Origin: Candidatus Bathyarchaeota archaeon BA2
GTDB taxonomy: Archaea > Thermoproteota > Bathyarchaeia > Bathyarchaeales > Bathyarchaeaceae
Reading direction: 5' to 3'
Assembly (NCBI GenBank): GCA_001399795.1
Contig: LIHK01000008.1
Location: 1-43,519, forward strand
DNA: 43,519 nucleotides
In this document: positions 6,941-21,946 of the stretch, piece by piece
How the letters are laid out: every line of letters begins with the position of its first letter
Numbering within the stretch: the stretch's first letter is position 1
Notes under the pieces: generated by a model
Seen by the model: only the letters and a program-made list of their open reading frames with translations
Databases searched by the model: none
What the model was told of the DNA's origin: nothing
Translations under genes and position numbers: made by a program

Positions 6941-7066
6941 AGCAAAATTGTTGCACTCGAACCAGTCGATTACGATTGGTTCTCCTATCCGGAGGAGTGG
7001 GAGAAAGTATTTCCAAAAGCTGCAGCAATTGCCAAACAGATGCTTCTGGGCAAAACACAAGATTGA
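6941..7066 (+). pseudogene. C-terminal fragment of an unrecognised protein
   Basis: An open stretch of 41 codons with natural protein composition, including VDYDWFSYPEEWEKVFPKAA, ends at a TGA at 7064-7066. It has no start codon and reads back directly into the stop of the SerA-like gene, so its beginning is missing. It looks like the tail of a gene cut off at a recombination junction just after the SerA stop. The next frame (7125-7994) continues with mobile-element-like protein. The family was not recognised; a search with the fragment would decide whether both pieces belong to one protein. Confidence 0.35.
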
Positions 7067-7124
7067 GGGCGGGATCTTACCTCTTCAAACGACAGAGGTT
7101 TTGCCAGCCTATGAAGTTTTTGGA

Positions 7125-7994
7125 ATGGCGAAAGAAGAACGCGATGAACTTCTTAAGGAGACTTTCTTTGGAAGGAAGTATCTAAGGGAGAGAAGGCCTA
7201 AAGAAGTTGAAAAAGAGGCTGTAGAGAAACCAGCCCTAAAGGAAGAGGCAAAGACCAGAACCTTAGAAGAGATAATTGCCACAATGACTCCTTTTGAAAA
7301 GGCAATTTTGTGGGCTATAGGAACAGGAAACTACAATGCCTCAGACATTTATGAAAAGGGGAATAAAAAGCTAAAAGAGATGGGATGCTCGACAAGGCAT
7401 TATTCTGAGTTTAAAAAGAAGTTTTATGAGTTTGCAAAGCTTCCACCAGAAGGAAAAGGATTAATAGAATTTACAAAAAGAGGAAGGGGCTTTTGCTATT
7501 GGCTTTCAAAATGGGGAGAAATTGCCTTTGCAGAAAAGTTTGGTATGCCCTCTGACCGAGCCATAAATGAGCTTGGAGGCGGAGGAAAACCATCAAAAGC
7601 CGTAGCCTTGGAAGTGATTAAGGAATGGCTTGAACCAGAAGGCTACAAAGTAACCAAGGAAGAGGAAATTGAGACGGACTTAACTGAAAGCCAAAGGGGC
7701 TACACCGACCTCGTAGCAGAAAAAGAAGGCGAAACTTTAAGGATTGAGATTGAACACCGCTCACCAAAGGAACAAGTGGAGAAGAACATAAGAAAGAATT
7801 TGGAATATTCGGATACCCTTTACATAATAGCCAGCGATGAAACAGCAAAAAAGAAAGCAATTCAGGTTGCCTTAAAAACAATGTTTCGCCTAAGAAGAGA
7901 AAAGCTAGATAAGGAATTAAAAGTTGAGGTAGCGAACATCGAGCAGTTAAAAAGAAGTAAGTTTAGGGAATGGTTCAAAATAAAAAATAAGTGA
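7125..7994 (+). CDS. Probable C-terminal remnant of an archaeal mobile-element ATPase/nuclease-like protein
   Basis: Not firmly recognised. The frame is open from 6948, but the readable protein starts around GGILPLQTTEVLPAYEVFGM and the first good start is ATG 7125 (MAKEERDELL). Visible parts: a charged linker, a helical winged-helix-like segment (MTPFEKAILWAIGTGNYNAS, about residues 50-70 from that start), a basic FTKRGRGFCYWLSKWGEIAF block, and a C-terminal region GYTDLVAEKEGETLRIEIEH that looks like a PD-(D/E)XK nuclease-fold core. No Walker motifs are present, so if it derives from a HerA/DUF87-type conjugation ATPase it has lost its N-terminal half. Lysine/glutamate-rich composition differs from the neighbouring metabolic genes. 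The family link is inference. Confidence 0.5.
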   Translation: MAKEERDELLKETFFGRKYLRERRPKEVEKEAVEKPALKEEAKTRTLEEIIATMTPFEKAILWAIGTGNYNASDIYEKGNKKLKEMGCSTRHYSEFKKKFYEFAKLPPEGKGLIEFTKRGRGFCYWLSKWGEIAFAEKFGMPSDRAINELGGGGKPSKAVALEVIKEWLEPEGYKVTKEEEIETDLTESQRGYTDLVAEKEGETLRIEIEHRSPKEQVEKNIRKNLEYSDTLYIIASDETAKKKAIQVALKTMFRLRREKLDKELKVEVANIEQLKRSKFREWFKIKNK

Positions 7995-8101
7995 GGAAAT
8001 AATAAAGGAAGAGTTAAGGTATACTTCTTTAATATACCTCTTTAATGGAATATATTTTTGGTAACTATGGGTCCATCGTCATCACAACTGGAATCATATA
8101 A

Positions 8102-8219
8102 TAGGGTAAAGTTTAATCTGCAATCTCCTAATTTCCAGTATTTACATCTAGGACATTTTAAAGCCATGACCTAATATATTAGTCTAAATATTAGGTCCGA
8201 TTTTTCAAACTTTACCCTA
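8102..8219. mobile_element. MITE-like element with terminal inverted repeats and possible TA duplication
   Basis: A 13-base perfect inverted repeat (tagggtaaagttt at 8102-8114, complement at 8207-8219) bounds 118 bases without coding potential. The outer TA of each end could be the target duplication typical of IS630/Tc1-type transposition. Inside lies a near-perfect hairpin, gacctaatat at 8168-8177 against its complement at 8188-8197, with further pairing in the loop. It sits between the element remnant and the peptide locus, in an AT-rich stretch of about 370 bases (7995-8361) that otherwise holds only promoter-like sequence. No transposase that could move it is present in the window. Confidence 0.5.
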
Positions 8220-8361
8220 ACTTTTATACCTAACTCTCTGGCAAGCGCGCGCTCTGCCGCTACCGCAAACCACGCCTATAAGTTTGACTAGTCAAAGCCC
8301 TGAGAAAAGTGCCAAAATCTTGATATGAGCGAAGAAGTAATATACAATCAGTAGTGATAAT

Positions 8362-9075
8362 ATGAGAAGCAAAAAACCTCTCGTTATTGTAAAGAACGTT
8401 GCGGCTTCTTACGGGGGAAAACAAATCCTCCGCGAGGTAAGTTTTAACGTTCACGAAGGAGAGATATTTGTAATTGTAGGACCAAATGGGTCTGGTAAAA
8501 CTACCTTATTAAGGACAATAGCTGGTGTTTTACCCATATTAAGAGGGGATATAATCATAGCTAACAAAAGTATAAAAAACGATCCTATTGCGGTTAAATC
8601 ATCCATTGGTTATATGATCGAAGGTGATAGAGTTTACGGAGAATTTACAGCTTTAGATAACGTCGTTATGTTCGCAAAATTTTATAGCGTCTCAAATGCT
8701 AAAGAAAAAGCTGTAGGGCTATTAAATGAATTAGGTCTTGGTGAGAACCTCTTTATTAAAGCAGAAAAACTTAGTTTAGGGCAAAAAAGAAAACTTTCAC
8801 TTGCGCGAGCCATAATCCACGATCCTCTCGTGCTCCTCCTCGATGAACCTACTTCAAATCTTGATCCCTCCAGTGCCTTCGATGTAAGGAATAGATTAAA
8901 AAAACTGGCTGAGAAAAAGGCTGTAATCCTTTGTACTCACAATCTTTATGAATCGCAAGAAATTGCTAGTAAAATGGGAATAATGATAAACGGGACCTTG
9001 GACATAGGCACTCCAACTGAACTTGTTAAAAGATTCCCTAATAAAATTGGAGATAATAAGAATGATTGGATTTGA
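8362..9075 (+). CDS. ABC transporter ATP-binding protein
   Basis: Nucleotide-binding subunit of an ABC exporter; it powers export through a separate permease at the membrane. Seen: Walker A GPNGSGKTT near residue 40, Q-loop region, signature LSLGQKRKLSLARA, Walker B LVLLLDEPTSNLDPSS, and the switch histidine in LCTHN. The sequence resembles the ABC-2 drug/peptide-export group. The 237 residues are a complete subunit. It is the first gene of a plus-strand run leading to an SdpI-like protein, a PqqD-like protein and an ABC-2 permease, so it likely exports or gives immunity to a modified peptide. A TATA-like taatatac lies only about 20 bases before the ATG, suggesting a leaderless or nearly leaderless transcript. 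Confidence 0.92.
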   Translation: MRSKKPLVIVKNVAASYGGKQILREVSFNVHEGEIFVIVGPNGSGKTTLLRTIAGVLPILRGDIIIANKSIKNDPIAVKSSIGYMIEGDRVYGEFTALDNVVMFAKFYSVSNAKEKAVGLLNELGLGENLFIKAEKLSLGQKRKLSLARAIIHDPLVLLLDEPTSNLDPSSAFDVRNRLKKLAEKKAVILCTHNLYESQEIASKMGIMINGTLDIGTPTELVKRFPNKIGDNKNDWI

Positions 9076-9382
9076 CAATCTTTTAATAATTTTTGGCTTT
9101 CTTTTTCTTATCTTAGGCTTTCTTACATATTGGGTTGGTATAAAGAGAAAAATAAATCCATTCTTAGGAGTTAGACTGCCGCAAACACTTAAAAGCGCTG
9201 ACATCTGGGAAAAAATAAATGTGAGATGCGGTATTTTGATAATAATTCATGGACTTGCAATGATTTCGCTTAGCTTTATCATTTGTGAAATAAGTTTCTG
9301 GGTTTTTCTTGCAGTAGCCTTGATTCCGCTTTTGTTAAACGTCATTTTTGCGCTTCTAATGATAAAAAGACTTAAAAACTGA
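9062..9382 (+). CDS. SdpI-like small membrane protein, candidate immunity protein
   Basis: Membrane protein of 106 residues with three or four hydrophobic segments. The loop NPFLGVRLPQTLKSADIWEKIN matches the pattern G-(I/V)-R-x-P-x-T-L-K-S-x-x-x-W of the SdpI family, whose founding member protects Bacillus from the SDP toxin. The ATG at 9062 overlaps the end of the ABC ATPase gene by 14 bases, which indicates translational coupling; an upstream frame from 9023 would lie wholly inside that gene. In this context an immunity or sensing role for an exported peptide is a reasonable inference, but SdpI homologues also occur outside toxin loci. Confidence 0.68.
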   Translation: MIGFDNLLIIFGFLFLILGFLTYWVGIKRKINPFLGVRLPQTLKSADIWEKINVRCGILIIIHGLAMISLSFIICEISFWVFLAVALIPLLLNVIFALLMIKRLKN

Positions 9383-9419
9383 ACAAATTCCATCGCAGCG
9401 TCGGTTCCCGTTCCCTAAA

Positions 9420-9429
9420 CTTTTAAATA
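9420..9429 (+). promoter_or_regulatory. TATA box of the PqqD-like/permease transcript
   Basis: cttttaaata matches an archaeal box A and lies 24-33 bases before the ATG at 9453, so transcription would begin at or very near the start codon. This gives the PqqD-like and ABC-2 genes a promoter of their own. Confidence 0.5.
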
Positions 9430-9452
9430 CATGTTGAGCAAAATAAATTCTC

Positions 9453-9860
9453 ATGAGTCAAAAGGTTAAGGTACTCTCGCAAGAAGTTATAAGACTCGTT
9501 GACAATCAATTTGAAGAGTTACTAGTTAAAAGTAAAGGATTAATAGCCGAATCACGCATTGTCTGGAGATGGGACAACGAAGACGTTATTGTTGCTTATC
9601 ATCCTCTTGTAGGAAGCATTACATTTCTGAATCCCACTATGGCTGAATTATTCTCATTAACTCTTAAAGAAGCTTCAACTGATTTGCTTATGAAATATAT
9701 GCAAGATACTTATCCAAACGTTAATAAACAAGTAATCAAAAAAGATTTAATCCAAGCTTTGAAATTTTTATTCGTGAATGGATTTATTAAACTAAAATTT
9801 TCTGATAAAGATGTAGCCATATATGAAGTGGAAGAATATGTTAAAGTTAATGCTTCATAA
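9453..9860 (+). CDS. PqqD-like peptide-recognition protein (RRE-type)
   Basis: Small winged-helix protein of the PqqD family, which in peptide natural-product pathways binds the precursor leader and presents it to a radical SAM enzyme. Seen in the 135 residues: the beta-strand region VAYHPLVGSITFLNPTMAEL, which matches the PqqD pattern of hydrophobic strands followed by LN-x-T-x-x-x-(I/L)-(F/W), then a helix pair ending in DLIQALKFLFVNGFIKL. An N-terminal extension of about 40 residues precedes it. It overlaps the following permease start. A radical SAM gene and a small peptide gene lie 1-2.5 kb away on the other strand, which is the strongest support for the peptide-chaperone role. Confidence 0.72.
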   Translation: MSQKVKVLSQEVIRLVDNQFEELLVKSKGLIAESRIVWRWDNEDVIVAYHPLVGSITFLNPTMAELFSLTLKEASTDLLMKYMQDTYPNVNKQVIKKDLIQALKFLFVNGFIKLKFSDKDVAIYEVEEYVKVNAS

Positions 9861-10623
9861 AGAGCTTAAAACCTACTTTTCGTCCCATATAATTTGGTAT
9901 GTTTTGGCTTTAAGCTTAACTATTCCAGTCCTCACAATCAGTATTTCATTAATTAACCCTAACGTGTTCACAGTACAAACAATATCATATTCCTTAATGT
10001 TCGAAAAAGAACTTGAAGATAAATTGGCTCTCCTTACATCAACACAGAGTTTAAGGATGCTGATTTTGTTTTCTTCGTTGCCACTTCTGATAAGTATCTT
10101 AGGAGGATATACAGCCTTGGCGTCAGCTGCTAAGTCCTTTGCTGGTGAGAAAGAGAGTAAAACCATAGAAATATTATTAGCATTGCCTATAAGTGATAGG
10201 CTTATATTTTTGGGAAAAATCCTTTCTTCCATGATCTTGGGTTTTATATCGGCGATGTTAGTTGCGGCCATTACAATCCTTGGAATTGAAATAAACTATT
10301 ACTTGATTACTAGAGATTGGTTTGGGGTTATATTTAGTTCATATTTTCATGTCACGCTTGCGCTCGCAGTATCAGCAATTTTAATTAGCTCAATGGTTGG
10401 AACCATTCTTTCTGGGCGTATAAAGAACGTTATAGCCGCGCTCTATGCCGGAGGCATCGTACCAGCGTTACCAGTATTAGTTATTATACTGTTTAGTACT
10501 TATAACCCCCAGATAAATATAGTATCGTTAGTATGGCGCATGACATTTGTTATATCAGCATTTTTTCCTTTGTTAACGTTGTTTGTTAATAGATTACTTA
10601 GAAGGGAGCGTCTAATATCATAG
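9838..10623 (+). CDS. ABC-2 type transporter permease
   Basis: Polytopic membrane permease with about six hydrophobic segments; partner of the ATPase at 8362. The block SAAKSFAGEKESKTIEILLA followed by LPISDRLIFLGKILSS is the recognisable ABC-2 signature. A long extracytoplasmic loop follows the first membrane segment (residues about 35-75). ATG 9838 starts within the end of the PqqD-like gene (overlap of 23 bases); an upstream in-frame ATG at 9823 is also possible. Likely exports the mature product of the peptide locus, or confers resistance to it. Confidence 0.85.
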   Translation: MLKLMLHKELKTYFSSHIIWYVLALSLTIPVLTISISLINPNVFTVQTISYSLMFEKELEDKLALLTSTQSLRMLILFSSLPLLISILGGYTALASAAKSFAGEKESKTIEILLALPISDRLIFLGKILSSMILGFISAMLVAAITILGIEINYYLITRDWFGVIFSSYFHVTLALAVSAILISSMVGTILSGRIKNVIAALYAGGIVPALPVLVIILFSTYNPQINIVSLVWRMTFVISAFFPLLTLFVNRLLRRERLIS

Positions 10624-10646
10624 GGCATAAATTTCGTTTTGTTGCC

Positions 10647-11018
10647 GTGAACTGTCTTAGATTTTTTCCGATAATTGGCAGATTTTTTTCACCAGCATCT
10701 AAAAACACTATTGAAAGATTGAAACAAAAAATTAGGCCGCGTTGGAGATATCTAATTCTAATCGAAAACACTCTTCTTTTTTCCATCCTGGGAGGGGCAT
10801 TGGCTTTAGCAAATACGCCTTTCAATACCTTCTTGGTTGCATTTTTATTAGTGTTTGTCCTTTTAGGCCCACTAGAACTATTTTTATATGTATTATTTTT
10901 TAATATCGCTAAGTATTATAAATCAGTTAAGGAATTTGCATTAATTTTTTCCTGGACGCTTTACCATGAATTTTGGTACTTTGTTCTAGGCTATTCTGTT
11001 ATTTCGAAATTAACTTAA
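10647..11018 (+). CDS. Small membrane protein of the peptide locus
   Basis: Unrecognised protein of 123 residues with a basic N-terminal third (KNTIERLKQKIRPRWRYL) and two to three hydrophobic segments (about residues 38-90 and 103-118). The start is uncertain: GTG 10647 has no clear ribosome site, and the frame is open back to 10620, just inside the end of the permease gene. Its stop overlaps the stop of the convergent radical SAM gene. Position at the end of the ABC-2 run suggests a second permease-associated, immunity or processing membrane protein; no protease motif was seen. Confidence 0.5.
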   Translation: MNCLRFFPIIGRFFSPASKNTIERLKQKIRPRWRYLILIENTLLFSILGGALALANTPFNTFLVAFLLVFVLLGPLELFLYVLFFNIAKYYKSVKEFALIFSWTLYHEFWYFVLGYSVISKLT

Positions 11019-12151
11019 CTTAACGTCAAACAAATTTTATCCACCAACTGCTTTATTTGATTTTCACTCAATTCTTTTATATTTATAGTATGTTTATGAT
11101 CGATCCCCAACGCTGTTTTTAGTTTTGGGATGTCAAATTCGGACTTCATGTAAGTAGATAATGCAACAAAAACTGGATGTTGCCAAATATTTGATAGACC
11201 ATTTTGCCAAAGGTTTCTTATTCCCTCTTTTACATTACCGTAAGCTATCGGAATATAGGGTGTTGGTAGAATAAATCCTTCCGGCGTTATATTTATTGAT
11301 AATGTAGGTAATAATTTCCCGATCTTTATATGTTCCATCGGATCTCCAAAGTCCATACGCAGAGAATATTTAAGGCTGTTATTTCTGATCCAATTAAGTA
11401 ACTCTAAATAATCGTTATCTGAAGGAACTAACGTGGATCCCGAGTGTTCTGGTACTAAATACATGGTCCTAACGCTTGTCACTTGCAATTCTGAAGCTAG
11501 CCTTACAACATTTGGGAAATCGAGGATGTTGTGCTTTGTACTTGCAAAACCTATGTGTACACTTATTTGGTTTCTTATGAGGTTTTGAATGGCATTAATC
11601 GCTTTTTTAAAAGTACCTTTGCCCCTAAGTGTATCCATCACGTTTGAAGATGCCCCATCCAAGGACACCTGAACACTATTAACCTTTACTTCTCTTAGAG
11701 CTTGGGAGAATTCATCATCAACTAATAAGCCATTAGTTACCATATTGACTGCTACAAAATATTTAGCTGCGCGCTCGATAAGTACGAGAAGGTCTTTTCT
11801 CAGAGTAGGTTCGCCTCCAGAGAAACATACGATAAGCACATTGAGGGAGTTTAGTTCTTTAAACACATTAATCCATTCCTCTGTGGATAACTCTTTTACA
11901 CATAAGGGTGCCTTCAGATAACAATAAGGGCAAGAAAAGTTACACCTATAGGTGGGATCCATTCCAACAAAAACTGGTCCTTTTAGCGATTTTGGAATAG
12001 CCTTTAACTTCCTATAACAAGCTGTTAATTCCTCGTAAGCTTTTAGAAATTCTGGAGATATTCTAGGTAGTCTTTTTTTGGCTTCTAGATCCTGTAACGC
12101 TTTATCCAAGTAGGGTTGTAAGATTTTAAGCGAAGTTTGATCAAAAGCCAT
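11015..12151 (-). CDS. Radical SAM enzyme, candidate peptide maturase
   Basis: Radical SAM protein of 378 residues. The [4Fe-4S] motif is CNFSCPYC (CxxxCxxC) near residue 75, followed by FSGGEPTLRKDL (SAM-binding GGE) and VSLDGASSNVMDTLRG. The C-terminal part has the shape of a SPASM/Twitch region (NITPEGFILPTPYIPIAYG) but threonine and alanine stand where the auxiliary-cluster cysteines would be, so it probably carries one cluster only. Start ATG 12151 follows a ggagtg site; a frame from 12196 lacks one. A 44-residue peptide gene lies 80 bases upstream on the same strand, and a PqqD-like gene and exporter converge on it. It probably modifies the peptide (epimerisation or crosslink; inference). 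Confidence 0.85.
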   Translation of the reverse strand: MAFDQTSLKILQPYLDKALQDLEAKKRLPRISPEFLKAYEELTACYRKLKAIPKSLKGPVFVGMDPTYRCNFSCPYCYLKAPLCVKELSTEEWINVFKELNSLNVLIVCFSGGEPTLRKDLLVLIERAAKYFVAVNMVTNGLLVDDEFSQALREVKVNSVQVSLDGASSNVMDTLRGKGTFKKAINAIQNLIRNQISVHIGFASTKHNILDFPNVVRLASELQVTSVRTMYLVPEHSGSTLVPSDNDYLELLNWIRNNSLKYSLRMDFGDPMEHIKIGKLLPTLSINITPEGFILPTPYIPIAYGNVKEGIRNLWQNGLSNIWQHPVFVALSTYMKSEFDIPKLKTALGIDHKHTINIKELSENQIKQLVDKICLTLS

Positions 12152-12231
12152 AAAGACACTCCAGTAGATTTGGCGGGAAGCATACTCACACAACAACCAA
12201 CAGTATTAAGTCGCAACGAACCGCTAATCCG

Positions 12232-12366
12232 TCAATAGGGCAAAGGATAATATTTGATGAGGGCTAACACGAGTACAACAGCGACAGCAACCACAAGCCA
12301 CAACCAAACTGCTGCTGGTCCAACCATCCCAGTAGATGCGAGAGTTGGTGTTACGTATTCTTTCAT
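12232..12366 (-). CDS. Candidate RiPP precursor: 44-residue hydrophobic peptide
   Basis: Short gene read directly from the minus strand, ATG 12366 to TGA 12232. It opens MKEYVTPTLASTGMVGPAAV, continues as a valine/alanine/leucine-rich segment beginning WLWLVVAVAVV, and ends KYYPLPY. There is no cysteine, so it is not a sactipeptide or lanthipeptide substrate. A ggtga ribosome site lies about eight bases before the ATG and a strong TATA box 30-45 bases upstream. It directly precedes the radical SAM gene on the same strand. Most likely the substrate of that enzyme with an N-terminal leader and hydrophobic core; alternatively a single-span membrane protein. Confidence 0.6.
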   Translation of the reverse strand: MKEYVTPTLASTGMVGPAAVWLWLVVAVAVVLVLALIKYYPLPY

Positions 12367-12395
12367 TACACTCACCAGCCACTTTTTTTAGCTAG

Positions 12396-13640: not shown

Positions 13641-14045
13641 ATGCGGATTTTGAAAGATATTGAAGTGACGATTGAGGGAAAAACTTCCAAGCTGACAGCT
13701 TTATTTAATTCTGGCTCAAGCTTCACAATCATGGGATACGGGAGATTGAAAGAACTCTTTAACAAGGTTCAAATTAAGGCATTAATTGAGCCAAGGGAGG
13801 CTGCCCTTTTAAACGGGCAAAGGATTATCATTGATGGATACGTGGATTCCCAAATAGTAATAGATGAACATTTAATCGAAGATAGAATCTACCTCACAAA
13901 GGATATGGTAAAAGAAGTTATCTTGGAAGGCGAAAAGAAATTTCTACCAGACCTCATCATTGGAGCACCAACCTTAGAAACTTGGGGACTTGAACTTGAC
14001 CTTAAAGAGGGCAGAATAATTAGGCGTGGAAGCTTCGTTATTTAA
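13641..14045 (+). CDS. Retropepsin-like (clan AA) aspartic protease-fold protein
   Basis: Protein of 134 residues with the single-domain retropepsin layout: N-terminal strands, then KLTALFNSGSSFTIMGYGRL where the family usually has D-T/S-G-A/S, a flap region, and the second conserved block PDLIIGAPTLETWGLELDL. The catalytic aspartate position appears to hold asparagine (NSG), so proteolytic activity is doubtful. Archaeal relatives are common as stand-alone small genes of unknown role. Start ATG 13641 follows gatagg/gtgg, and a TATA-like tttaaaaa lies about 60 bases upstream. A good stem-loop terminator follows the stop. Confidence 0.7.
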   Translation: MRILKDIEVTIEGKTSKLTALFNSGSSFTIMGYGRLKELFNKVQIKALIEPREAALLNGQRIIIDGYVDSQIVIDEHLIEDRIYLTKDMVKEVILEGEKKFLPDLIIGAPTLETWGLELDLKEGRIIRRGSFVI

Positions 14046-14112: not shown

Positions 14113-14451
14113 TTAAAGAAAACTGAATATTCTCCCTAATATTCCAAATTTACAAGTTATATCCTGAACTTTATCTAAAGGAATGAACATTATTCTCTTC
14201 CAGATAATCCCTCTTTCTTCTATCAGCCTCAGGTTGGTTAAATAATAGTTTATGCAAAGCCAATCCAGAAAGACTATCAGCATCGCCAAAAGCCAAGTCA
14301 CAGCAAAAACCACTAAAACTAAACTTGGCAAAAAATAGGTGAAACTGAAAATTAGAAAGCCGAGAATTATCAAGGCTAATTCTGGAATAGCCACATAAAG
14401 CCAGTGTAGATGAACACTGAAAATTATTTTCTCTTTATCTTCTAACCTCAT
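14113..14451 (-). CDS. PH-domain (YdbS/bPH2-like) membrane protein, probably C-terminally truncated
   Basis: Two hydrophobic segments (residues about 15-40 and 45-68) are followed by INYYLTNLRLIEERGIIWKR and FIPLDKVQDITCKFGILGRI, the hallmark of bacterial/archaeal PH-like YdbS proteins. In intact members a further 30-60 residues of PH domain follow (typically G-D-V-x-I...). Here the protein stops after GRIFSFL at residue 112, so the domain is cut short. The truncation falls next to other broken genes. The start ATG 14451 lies six bases after the stop of another gene fragment on the same strand. Confidence 0.55.
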   Translation of the reverse strand: MRLEDKEKIIFSVHLHWLYVAIPELALIILGFLIFSFTYFLPSLVLVVFAVTWLLAMLIVFLDWLCINYYLTNLRLIEERGIIWKRIMFIPLDKVQDITCKFGILGRIFSFL

Positions 14452-21235: not shown

Positions 21236-21946
21236 TTATCTTAATTTTACATTTGGAAGCAATTCTTGCACCATGGTTAAGAATGTTTTCATTTCCTCGT
21301 CTGTGAAAGGTTTTAGCTTGCTAAAGGCTGGGTCCAGAGTTTTCTTTCCGAGACTGACATCGAACTTCTGTAGCACATATTTTTTGCAGCCCTTTATGCT
21401 GTTGCATAGTTCTTTTATATCTTCCTCTTCGTGGAGCGTGGGAACTACTGTGGTTTTGAACTCGTAATCCATGTTGGATTCTAGTAGGATTTTCATAGTT
21501 TCCTTCACTTTTCCAAGAAGCTTCTCAGCGTTGATGCCTGTTACCTTGGAATATTTTTCCACAGTCAACGGAGCCTTAACATCTAGTGCTATGTAGTCAA
21601 CGAGTCCCTTTTCAATTAGTTCTTTCACCATAGTCGGGTTGGTTCCATTAGTGTCTACCTTAACCAGAAAGCCCATTTCCTTTAACTTTGAACAGAGGTC
21701 TGGCAGGTCGCTGTGAAGTGTCGGCTCTCCGCCTGTTATGCATACGCCGTCGATCCAGTTTCTTTGCTTCTTCAGATAATTCTCCACTTGCTCAAAAGGA
21801 ATGGTCTTTTCCTTTTCGGGATGAAGAACAAGGGCAGGGTTCTGGCAGAAGGGGCAACGAAAGTTGCAGCGTGAGAGGAAGAGGACAGAGGATACTTTTC
21901 CGTCCCAATCCACTAAACTGAGGTCGATAACTCCCTTTATCTCCAT
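21236..21946 (-). CDS. nrdG: Anaerobic ribonucleotide-reductase activating protein-like radical SAM enzyme
   Basis: Glycyl-radical activase of the NrdG/PflA type. The opening MEIKGVIDLSLVDWDGKVSS and LSRCNFRCPFCQNPALV (CxxxCxxC near residue 27) are typical, followed by VCITGGEPTLHSDLPDL and VKVDTNGTNP, and IALDVKAPL. Length 236 is usual for the NrdG2 group. The reductase NrdD itself is not in the window, so the partner is unproven. It ends 165 bases from AcdB and the two may be separate transcripts; the gap holds the zinc-ribbon relic at 21087-21235. Confidence 0.85.
   Translation of the reverse strand: MEIKGVIDLSLVDWDGKVSSVLFLSRCNFRCPFCQNPALVLHPEKEKTIPFEQVENYLKKQRNWIDGVCITGGEPTLHSDLPDLCSKLKEMGFLVKVDTNGTNPTMVKELIEKGLVDYIALDVKAPLTVEKYSKVTGINAEKLLGKVKETMKILLESNMDYEFKTTVVPTLHEEEDIKELCNSIKGCKKYVLQKFDVSLGKKTLDPAFSKLKPFTDEEMKTFLTMVQELLPNVKLR

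Follow-up and report, generated by a model that had tools for sequence, protein, structure and literature searches.

The window analysed here is a stretch of 43,519 nucleotides from Candidatus Bathyarchaeota archaeon BA2 (contig LIHK01000008.1), and the features discussed below are collected in Table 1. On the minus strand an open reading frame (ORF) begins with ATG at 12366, ends with a stop codon at 12232-12234 and encodes a peptide of 44 amino acids, MKEYVTPTLASTGMVGPAAVWLWLVVAVAVVLVLALIKYYPLPY, which has no cysteine; use of the GTG at 12375 as the start would add three residues (MSV). Next on this strand, 80 bp downstream of the frame, comes a radical-SAM gene, and the enzyme beside the candidate precursor is one of maturase type. 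On the plus strand a tightly packed operon, whose genes overlap, runs towards the radical-SAM gene and carries an ABC ATPase, an ABC-2 permease and an SdpI-family protein as candidate export or immunity genes.

Table 1. Position and character of the features around the peptide gene
Feature	Position	Strand	Remarks
ABC transporter ATPase (candidate for export or immunity)	8362..9075	+	PF00005, 6.2e-29
SdpI-family membrane protein (candidate immunity protein)	9062..9382	+	PF13630, 3.4e-13, above cut-off
PqqD/RRE-like protein, 135 aa (proposed leader binder)	9453..9860	+	weak matches
ABC-2 type permease	9823..10623	+	PF12679, 2.5e-12
Membrane protein, 123 aa, no family	10647..11018	+	convergent with the radical-SAM gene
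Radical-SAM enzyme, 378 aa	11015..12151	-	CxxxCxxC at residues 70/74/77; own GGAG site 12159-12162
Peptide gene (candidate RiPP precursor)	12232..12366	-	44 aa; alternative GTG start at 12375
Hydrophobic core PAAVWLWLVVAVAVVLVLALI, residues 17-37	12256..12318	-	two-residue alternation
Leader motif YVTPTLASTG, residues 4-13	12328..12357	-	fits [Y/W]xxPx[L/V/I/F/A]
Shine-Dalgarno-like GGTGA	12372..12376	-	5 nt 5' of the ATG, read by eye
TATA box TTTATATATATAAA	12397..12410	-	exact palindrome, upstream of the peptide ORF

The palindrome TTTATATATATAAA is the sole match in the window when up to two mismatches are allowed (0.22 expected). The transcript presumably starts near 12377, about 10 nt 5' of the ATG, as we take from the spacing general in archaeal promoters, and the TATA box stands about 26 bp upstream of this point. 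Judged from sequence, the promoter may be strong and the gene highly expressed. The real window was also compared with 100 dinucleotide-preserving shuffles, in which ORFs of 30-90 aa were searched for an N-terminal [YW]xxPx[LIVFA] motif together with a 19-aa stretch of mean hydropathy of at least 2.5. The combination occurred in 0 of the 100 shuffles and in two ORFs of the window, the second being an internal start inside a 112-aa bPH_2 membrane protein (14113-14451). The motif alone is common in small ORFs (7 in the window vs 5.7 in the shuffles). Judged by these comparisons, the 44-codon ORF is a real small gene and more than a product of chance.

Other genes of the window include a 134-aa ORF at 13641-14045, which looks by eye like an aspartic protease of the retropepsin type (LTALFNSGSSFTIM) and has no Pfam match, and a 348-aa ORF at 6948-7994 with weak matches to the HFX_2341-type regulator (5e-5) and to a TIR-like ThsB domain (0.05). 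Cdc6/Orc1 and an EF-2/EF-G-type factor are encoded as well and mark the genome as archaeal.

Leader and hydrophobic core of the peptide

Near the start of the peptide, residues 4-9 (YVTPTL) fit [Y/W]xxPx[L/V], the published motif that lasso-type RiPP recognition elements (RREs) recognise in short precursors, and within the small ORFs of the window the longer form YxxPxLxxxG is found in the peptide gene alone. Crystal structures and mutants have shown that the Tyr/Trp and the Pro of this motif are buried in the cleft of the RRE, and that a further contact is made by a Lys placed two or three positions ahead of the Tyr/Trp (PMC13381572); YxxP has likewise been given among recognition motifs (PMC12710340). 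Residues 2-9 (KEYVTPTL) correspond to the span fitting the motif bound by separate lasso-type RREs. Over residues 1-13 Pfam gives a weak match, to DUF5972 (E 0.087). The preliminary description of this DNA had reported a 44-residue cysteine-free peptide gene preceded by the best palindromic TATA box of the window, with a possible N-terminal leader and a composition that excludes a thioether peptide; the reading of the ORF and of its promoter agrees with it, the YxxPxL motif lends support to the leader, and the count of zero cysteines stands.

In residues 19-37 of the core the nine even positions (20-36) are occupied throughout by Leu or Val, the odd ones by Ala, Trp, Val or Ile. By permutation of residues this alternation has a p value of 0.0048 for 19-37 and of about 0.02 for 17-37, 18-37 and 18-36, a pattern spotted after the fact, in a test that covers residue identity and not D/L configuration. 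In a small control set of 86 hydrophobic segments, 1.2% reached 0.05, and the significance of the alternation is modest. A 20-residue stretch of the peptide has a mean hydropathy of 3.0, and residues of further interest are Trp21, Trp23, Lys38, Tyr39, Tyr40, Tyr44 and the many Val.

Radical-SAM enzyme, its partners and their distribution

Of the solved structures, SkfB (6efn) is the closest to the enzyme in sequence (4e-19), followed by PqqE (4.5e-14), and the mycofactocin radical-SAM model is among its better profile matches (1e-31). An AlphaFold model built from a 10-row alignment had a mean pLDDT of 68, with values above 80 over much of the SAM core and mostly of 50-76 in the C-terminal domain. 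A fold search with this model returned SkfB first (2.4e-16) and then SuiB, PqqE and CteB; EpeE came at rank 43 with 13% identity and is missing from the sequence matches. Across the C-terminal SPASM-like domain (about residues 265-335) the framework ITPEGFILPTPYIPIAYGNV aligns with the cluster cysteines replaced, and neither a seven-cysteine SPASM motif nor the shorter twitch motif is present. In a set of 52 radical-SAM proteins collected in this analysis, only four have zero or one cysteine in the C-terminal region: the BA2 enzyme, a Collinsella enzyme, a Macrococcus protein and a short QueE-like protein. The enzyme is thus best regarded as SPASM-derived, having apparently lost its auxiliary clusters and kept the SAM-binding cluster motif.

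Cys109 lies beside the GGE motif and is common to the BA2 and Collinsella enzymes; three of the 52 proteins have a cysteine at this position. It may be considered one candidate hydrogen donor. Its use as a diagnostic donor for epimerisation was dropped because the short QueE-like radical-SAM protein of the window (21236-21946) also has such a cysteine, three residues before GGE (VCITGGEP). Viperin matches given by PADLOC for the enzyme were discarded as cross-hits within the superfamily.

The 135-aa protein of the operon is probably PqqD/RRE-like, no single line of evidence being decisive. Its profile matches are below threshold (TIGR04353, E 0.014; PF05402, E 0.15), and its hhalign score against five PqqD/MftB proteins, 18.7, equals the maximum of 100 shuffles. 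A G-x-I-x-x-L-N element and a helical C-terminus can be recognised by eye; the single-sequence model was poor (mean pLDDT 46) and the fold search made with it uninformative.

The cluster of ABC, SdpI, PqqD and radical-SAM genes (8001-12000) has a GC content of 34-36% vs mostly 43-50% elsewhere in the window, which fits recent acquisition. Neither a tRNA nor a clear flanking repeat was found at this AT-rich island, and Rfam and tRNA scans were empty. Homologues of the peptide were found neither in 61 genomes of relatives nor in plasmids, and the best outside match (E 0.0098), with an internal stop, was taken as chance. For the enzyme no orthologue was obtained at 1e-35 among 163 genomes of the order, nor in a sample of 398 genomes of the phylum (best match 112 bits vs 852 for the enzyme itself), nor in plasmids, phages and viral contigs, where only general radical-SAM/SPASM proteins appeared; one scan of genome contigs gave six distant matches. 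A search of the phylum with a profile of the C-terminal domain mostly brought up the 30-residue GN-motif that ordinary SPASM proteins have, along with a few stretches of somewhat greater length. Low GC and the absence of orthologues in order and phylum are as would be seen for a mobile, niche-specific toxin locus.

A search for PqqD in the 398 genomes yielded two weak matches. One of them, in genome G344 (L059:6768-7079), is a PqqD-like ORF that is interrupted by an in-frame TAG and has no peptide of the expected kind beside it; its neighbours are genes for an ABC permease, an ABC ATPase and a membrane protein of 161 aa. This other genome of the phylum may carry a RiPP locus that has decayed or been recoded. 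Further loci (L013/L060, L048, L052, L053 and L061, and those of Macrococcus, Paenibacillus and Acinetobacter) were set aside, as they had no matching peptide and RRE or belonged to the PQQ pathway. The small mobilisable plasmid pMCCL1 of Macrococcoides (L063:3698-6924) carries a ThiF-type enzyme, a radical-SAM/SPASM protein and a second radical-SAM protein without C-terminal cysteine.

What can be regarded as an uncharacterised bacterial counterpart was found in Collinsella aerofaciens (NZ_OY725717.1, 106-113 kb). Its SPASM-like radical-SAM enzyme is 32% identical overall to the BA2 enzyme, and the C-terminal domains alone are 33% identical over 107 aa (pairwise E 8e-16), both without cluster cysteines and both with GDPxxH and PYIPxxxGNV. 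In Collinsella the enzyme gene is flanked on one side by a PqqD-family gene and on the other by a gene for a 51-aa Cys-free, V/A-rich peptide, MDSKTGPVPVVVNFAAVVDNVVAAVYDAVVAAYAFWYSADNDGTGTSAAQN; the three genes span L057:5111-7245, and the locus also has an ABC exporter and a DUF1648 membrane protein. The two loci thus share a radical-SAM enzyme of the same subfamily, a PqqD-type protein and a short Cys-free V/A-rich peptide, a three-part set which therefore recurs across domains of life. They differ in that the Collinsella peptide is downstream of the enzyme gene and the BA2 peptide upstream, in that PqqD is fused to a longer protein in Collinsella whereas the RRE-like protein of BA2 is separate, and in that the ABC exporter of the former is one-chain and the ABC pair of the latter an ATPase plus a permease. 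Counted against the RiPP reading set out below, the Collinsella peptide has no YxxP near its start and an alternation p of 0.84; the two peptides do not align.

Proposed maturation and its alternatives

It can be held with good confidence that the ORF encodes a RiPP precursor and not just a membrane anchor, and probably a precursor modified in this cluster, although the exact chemistry is not fixed. The preliminary description had seen in it the Cys-free substrate of the adjoining radical-SAM enzyme, and this view is strengthened by the YxxPxL motif, the RRE-like protein, the SdpI-family gene, the ABC pair and the Collinsella parallel. In the proposed pathway the PqqD-like protein would bind residues 2-9 and hand the peptide over to the radical-SAM enzyme. 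This enzyme would then change the Val/Ala/Leu/Trp core, either in the backbone (at C-alpha) or in the side chains. As the SAM-binding cluster motif is the only one that the enzyme has kept, its reaction would probably be redox-neutral, with epimerisation, perhaps at alternate residues, as its most likely but still tentative form. A protease would cut off the leader and the product would then be exported. Counted against the RiPP reading, the RRE assignment depends on matches below threshold, the searches gave no homologue of the peptide, and no leader protease was recognised among the cluster genes; such a protease is not universal in RiPP clusters and could be encoded elsewhere.

The mature product would permeabilise competitors' membranes. 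Protection of the producer would fall to the SdpI-family protein, the ABC transporter or both. Some SdpI-family proteins have no immunity role, which counts against this assignment. The presence of an SdpI-family gene and an ABC pair in one locus nevertheless suggests a membrane-active product whose producer needs immunity, and a membrane-active antimicrobial is slightly favoured as the function. Autoimmunity in B. subtilis is provided by SdpI against SDP, by SkfEF against SKF and by EpeAB against EPE (PMC13343845).

Epimerases of RiPPs abstract the C-alpha hydrogen and return a hydrogen from a cysteine in a redox-neutral reaction (PMC8326336), and a SPASM-derived enzyme without auxiliary clusters is easier to reconcile with such epimerisation than with net oxidation. 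The reaction could instead, though with lower probability, be a crosslink or another oxidative change, namely a Trp-Lys or Trp/Tyr cyclophane, conversion of Val to cyclopropylglycine or a mycofactocin-like attack on the C-terminal Tyr, for which the Trp, Lys, Tyr and Val residues named above are available and the match to the mycofactocin model speaks. Streptide-, PQQ- and mycofactocin-type enzymes have cysteine-rich SPASM domains. Radical-SAM enzymes do form Lys-Trp bonds (PMC5491770) and the Trp-Trp ether and Lys-Trp bond of darobactin (PMC9055067), and TvgB, of a subfamily known to bind up to three clusters, converts Val to cyclopropylglycine (PMC9062424). However, the cysteines that the SPASM domains of the streptide, PQQ and mycofactocin enzymes carry are gone in the BA2 enzyme, and the peptide has neither an Aro-x-x motif repeat nor a repeated TVGG-type unit. 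Crosslinks at Trp/Tyr/Lys, put forward in the preliminary description, are the less likely chemistry, since known crosslinking enzymes of this kind are SPASM proteins with auxiliary clusters. Its suggestion of YydF-type epimerisation fails as to family membership (SkfB, SuiB and PqqE are closest, EpeE is 43rd, cluster cysteines and EpeP are absent) and survives as a best guess at the chemistry only.

A small unmodified membrane protein (an accessory subunit, an anchor or a membrane-active peptide) merely adjoining the enzyme gene is an unlikely explanation. The stretch with hydropathy 3.0 could be taken for a transmembrane helix, there are weak, chance-level TatA-like matches (E 0.53), and no set of homologues was found to show constraint; opposed to this are the leader motif, the position directly upstream of the radical-SAM gene on the same strand, the RRE-like, SdpI and ABC neighbours, the parallel arrangement in Collinsella and an alternation unusual among hydrophobic segments. 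That the ORF is unexpressed or no gene, the enzyme acting on something else, would suit its mere 44 codons and the lack of comparative evidence, but is very improbable in view of the unique TATA palindrome, the correctly spaced Shine-Dalgarno-like site and a motif combination absent from the shuffles.

Comparison with known systems

Radical-SAM RiPPs have been predicted in many archaea, but the only archaeal RiPPs that a 2025 survey could cite as validated by experiment are two lanthipeptides of haloarchaea from previous studies (PMC12144867). The BA2 locus offers a compact test case, having a single peptide with its presumed enzyme, a proposed leader binder and candidate immunity genes, and a SPASM-family enzyme shorn of its auxiliary clusters bears on the question of which chemistry those clusters serve.

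The BA2 peptide is not a member of the YydF/EpeX, sactipeptide, lasso or proteusin families. The nearest solved relative of the enzyme in sequence and fold belongs to the sporulation killing factor system of Bacillus subtilis (skfABCEFGH), which likewise combines a small peptide gene, a radical-SAM gene and an ABC transporter pair, there serving autoimmunity. SKF is, however, a Cys-dependent sactipeptide, whereas the BA2 core has no cysteine for thioethers of the sactipeptide or ranthipeptide kind, its enzyme has no twitch/SPASM cysteines, and a separate RRE-like protein and an SdpI-family gene are added. The epipeptide system (yydFGHIJ = epeXEPAB) has in common with BA2 a Cys-free peptide, a radical-SAM enzyme, an ABC pair and a proposed membrane target. 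EpeE carries a second cluster (PMC8326336), and the BA2 enzyme, with the low identity and fold rank given above, has no C-terminal cluster cysteines; in contrast to the epipeptide system, the BA2 cluster is without an EpeP peptidase and combines a lasso-like leader with a probable RRE. Lasso peptides and linear polyphosphorylated peptides share the YxxPx[L/V] leader and have a separate RRE (PMC13381572), as BA2 probably does; a B2 protease, an Asn-synthetase-like cyclase and a kinase are absent from the BA2 cluster.

The proteusin epimerases PoyD and OspD contain, besides an RRE, no cluster other than that for SAM (PMC8326336), which resembles the BA2 enzyme with its SAM cluster motif only, and PoyD epimerises every second residue (PMC8326336), a pattern that would suit the alternation of the BA2 core. 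BA2 differs in having its probable RRE separate, an enzyme of the SPASM-derived branch and no nitrile-hydratase-like leader: about 13-16 residues precede the hydrophobic core, and a nitrile-hydratase-like Pfam match was not found.

Gramicidin A contains six D residues, all Leu or Val, with its Trp residues L (PMC7531004), and the same D/L alternation is installed in polytheonamide by a radical-SAM epimerase (PMC8183687; PMC8326336). It is conceivable, if improbable, that the BA2 product is a ribosomal mimic of gramicidin, in which a Cys-less SPASM-derived enzyme would epimerise every second residue of 20-36 to give a D/L-alternating beta-helix channel. Such an enzyme would represent an epimerase class of its own, distinct from EpeE and PoyD, guided by a lasso-type leader plus RRE and accompanied by SdpI-type immunity. 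Should the product indeed alternate D and L residues, the architecture of gramicidin would have been attained by ribosomes plus a single enzyme, on a route separate from nonribosomal synthesis. Gramicidin A is nonribosomal, while the BA2 peptide is ribosomal, its D residues are hypothetical and no capping is known; the likeness, a striking one, lies in composition and parity, the D residues of the one being Leu or Val, as are the even positions of the other.
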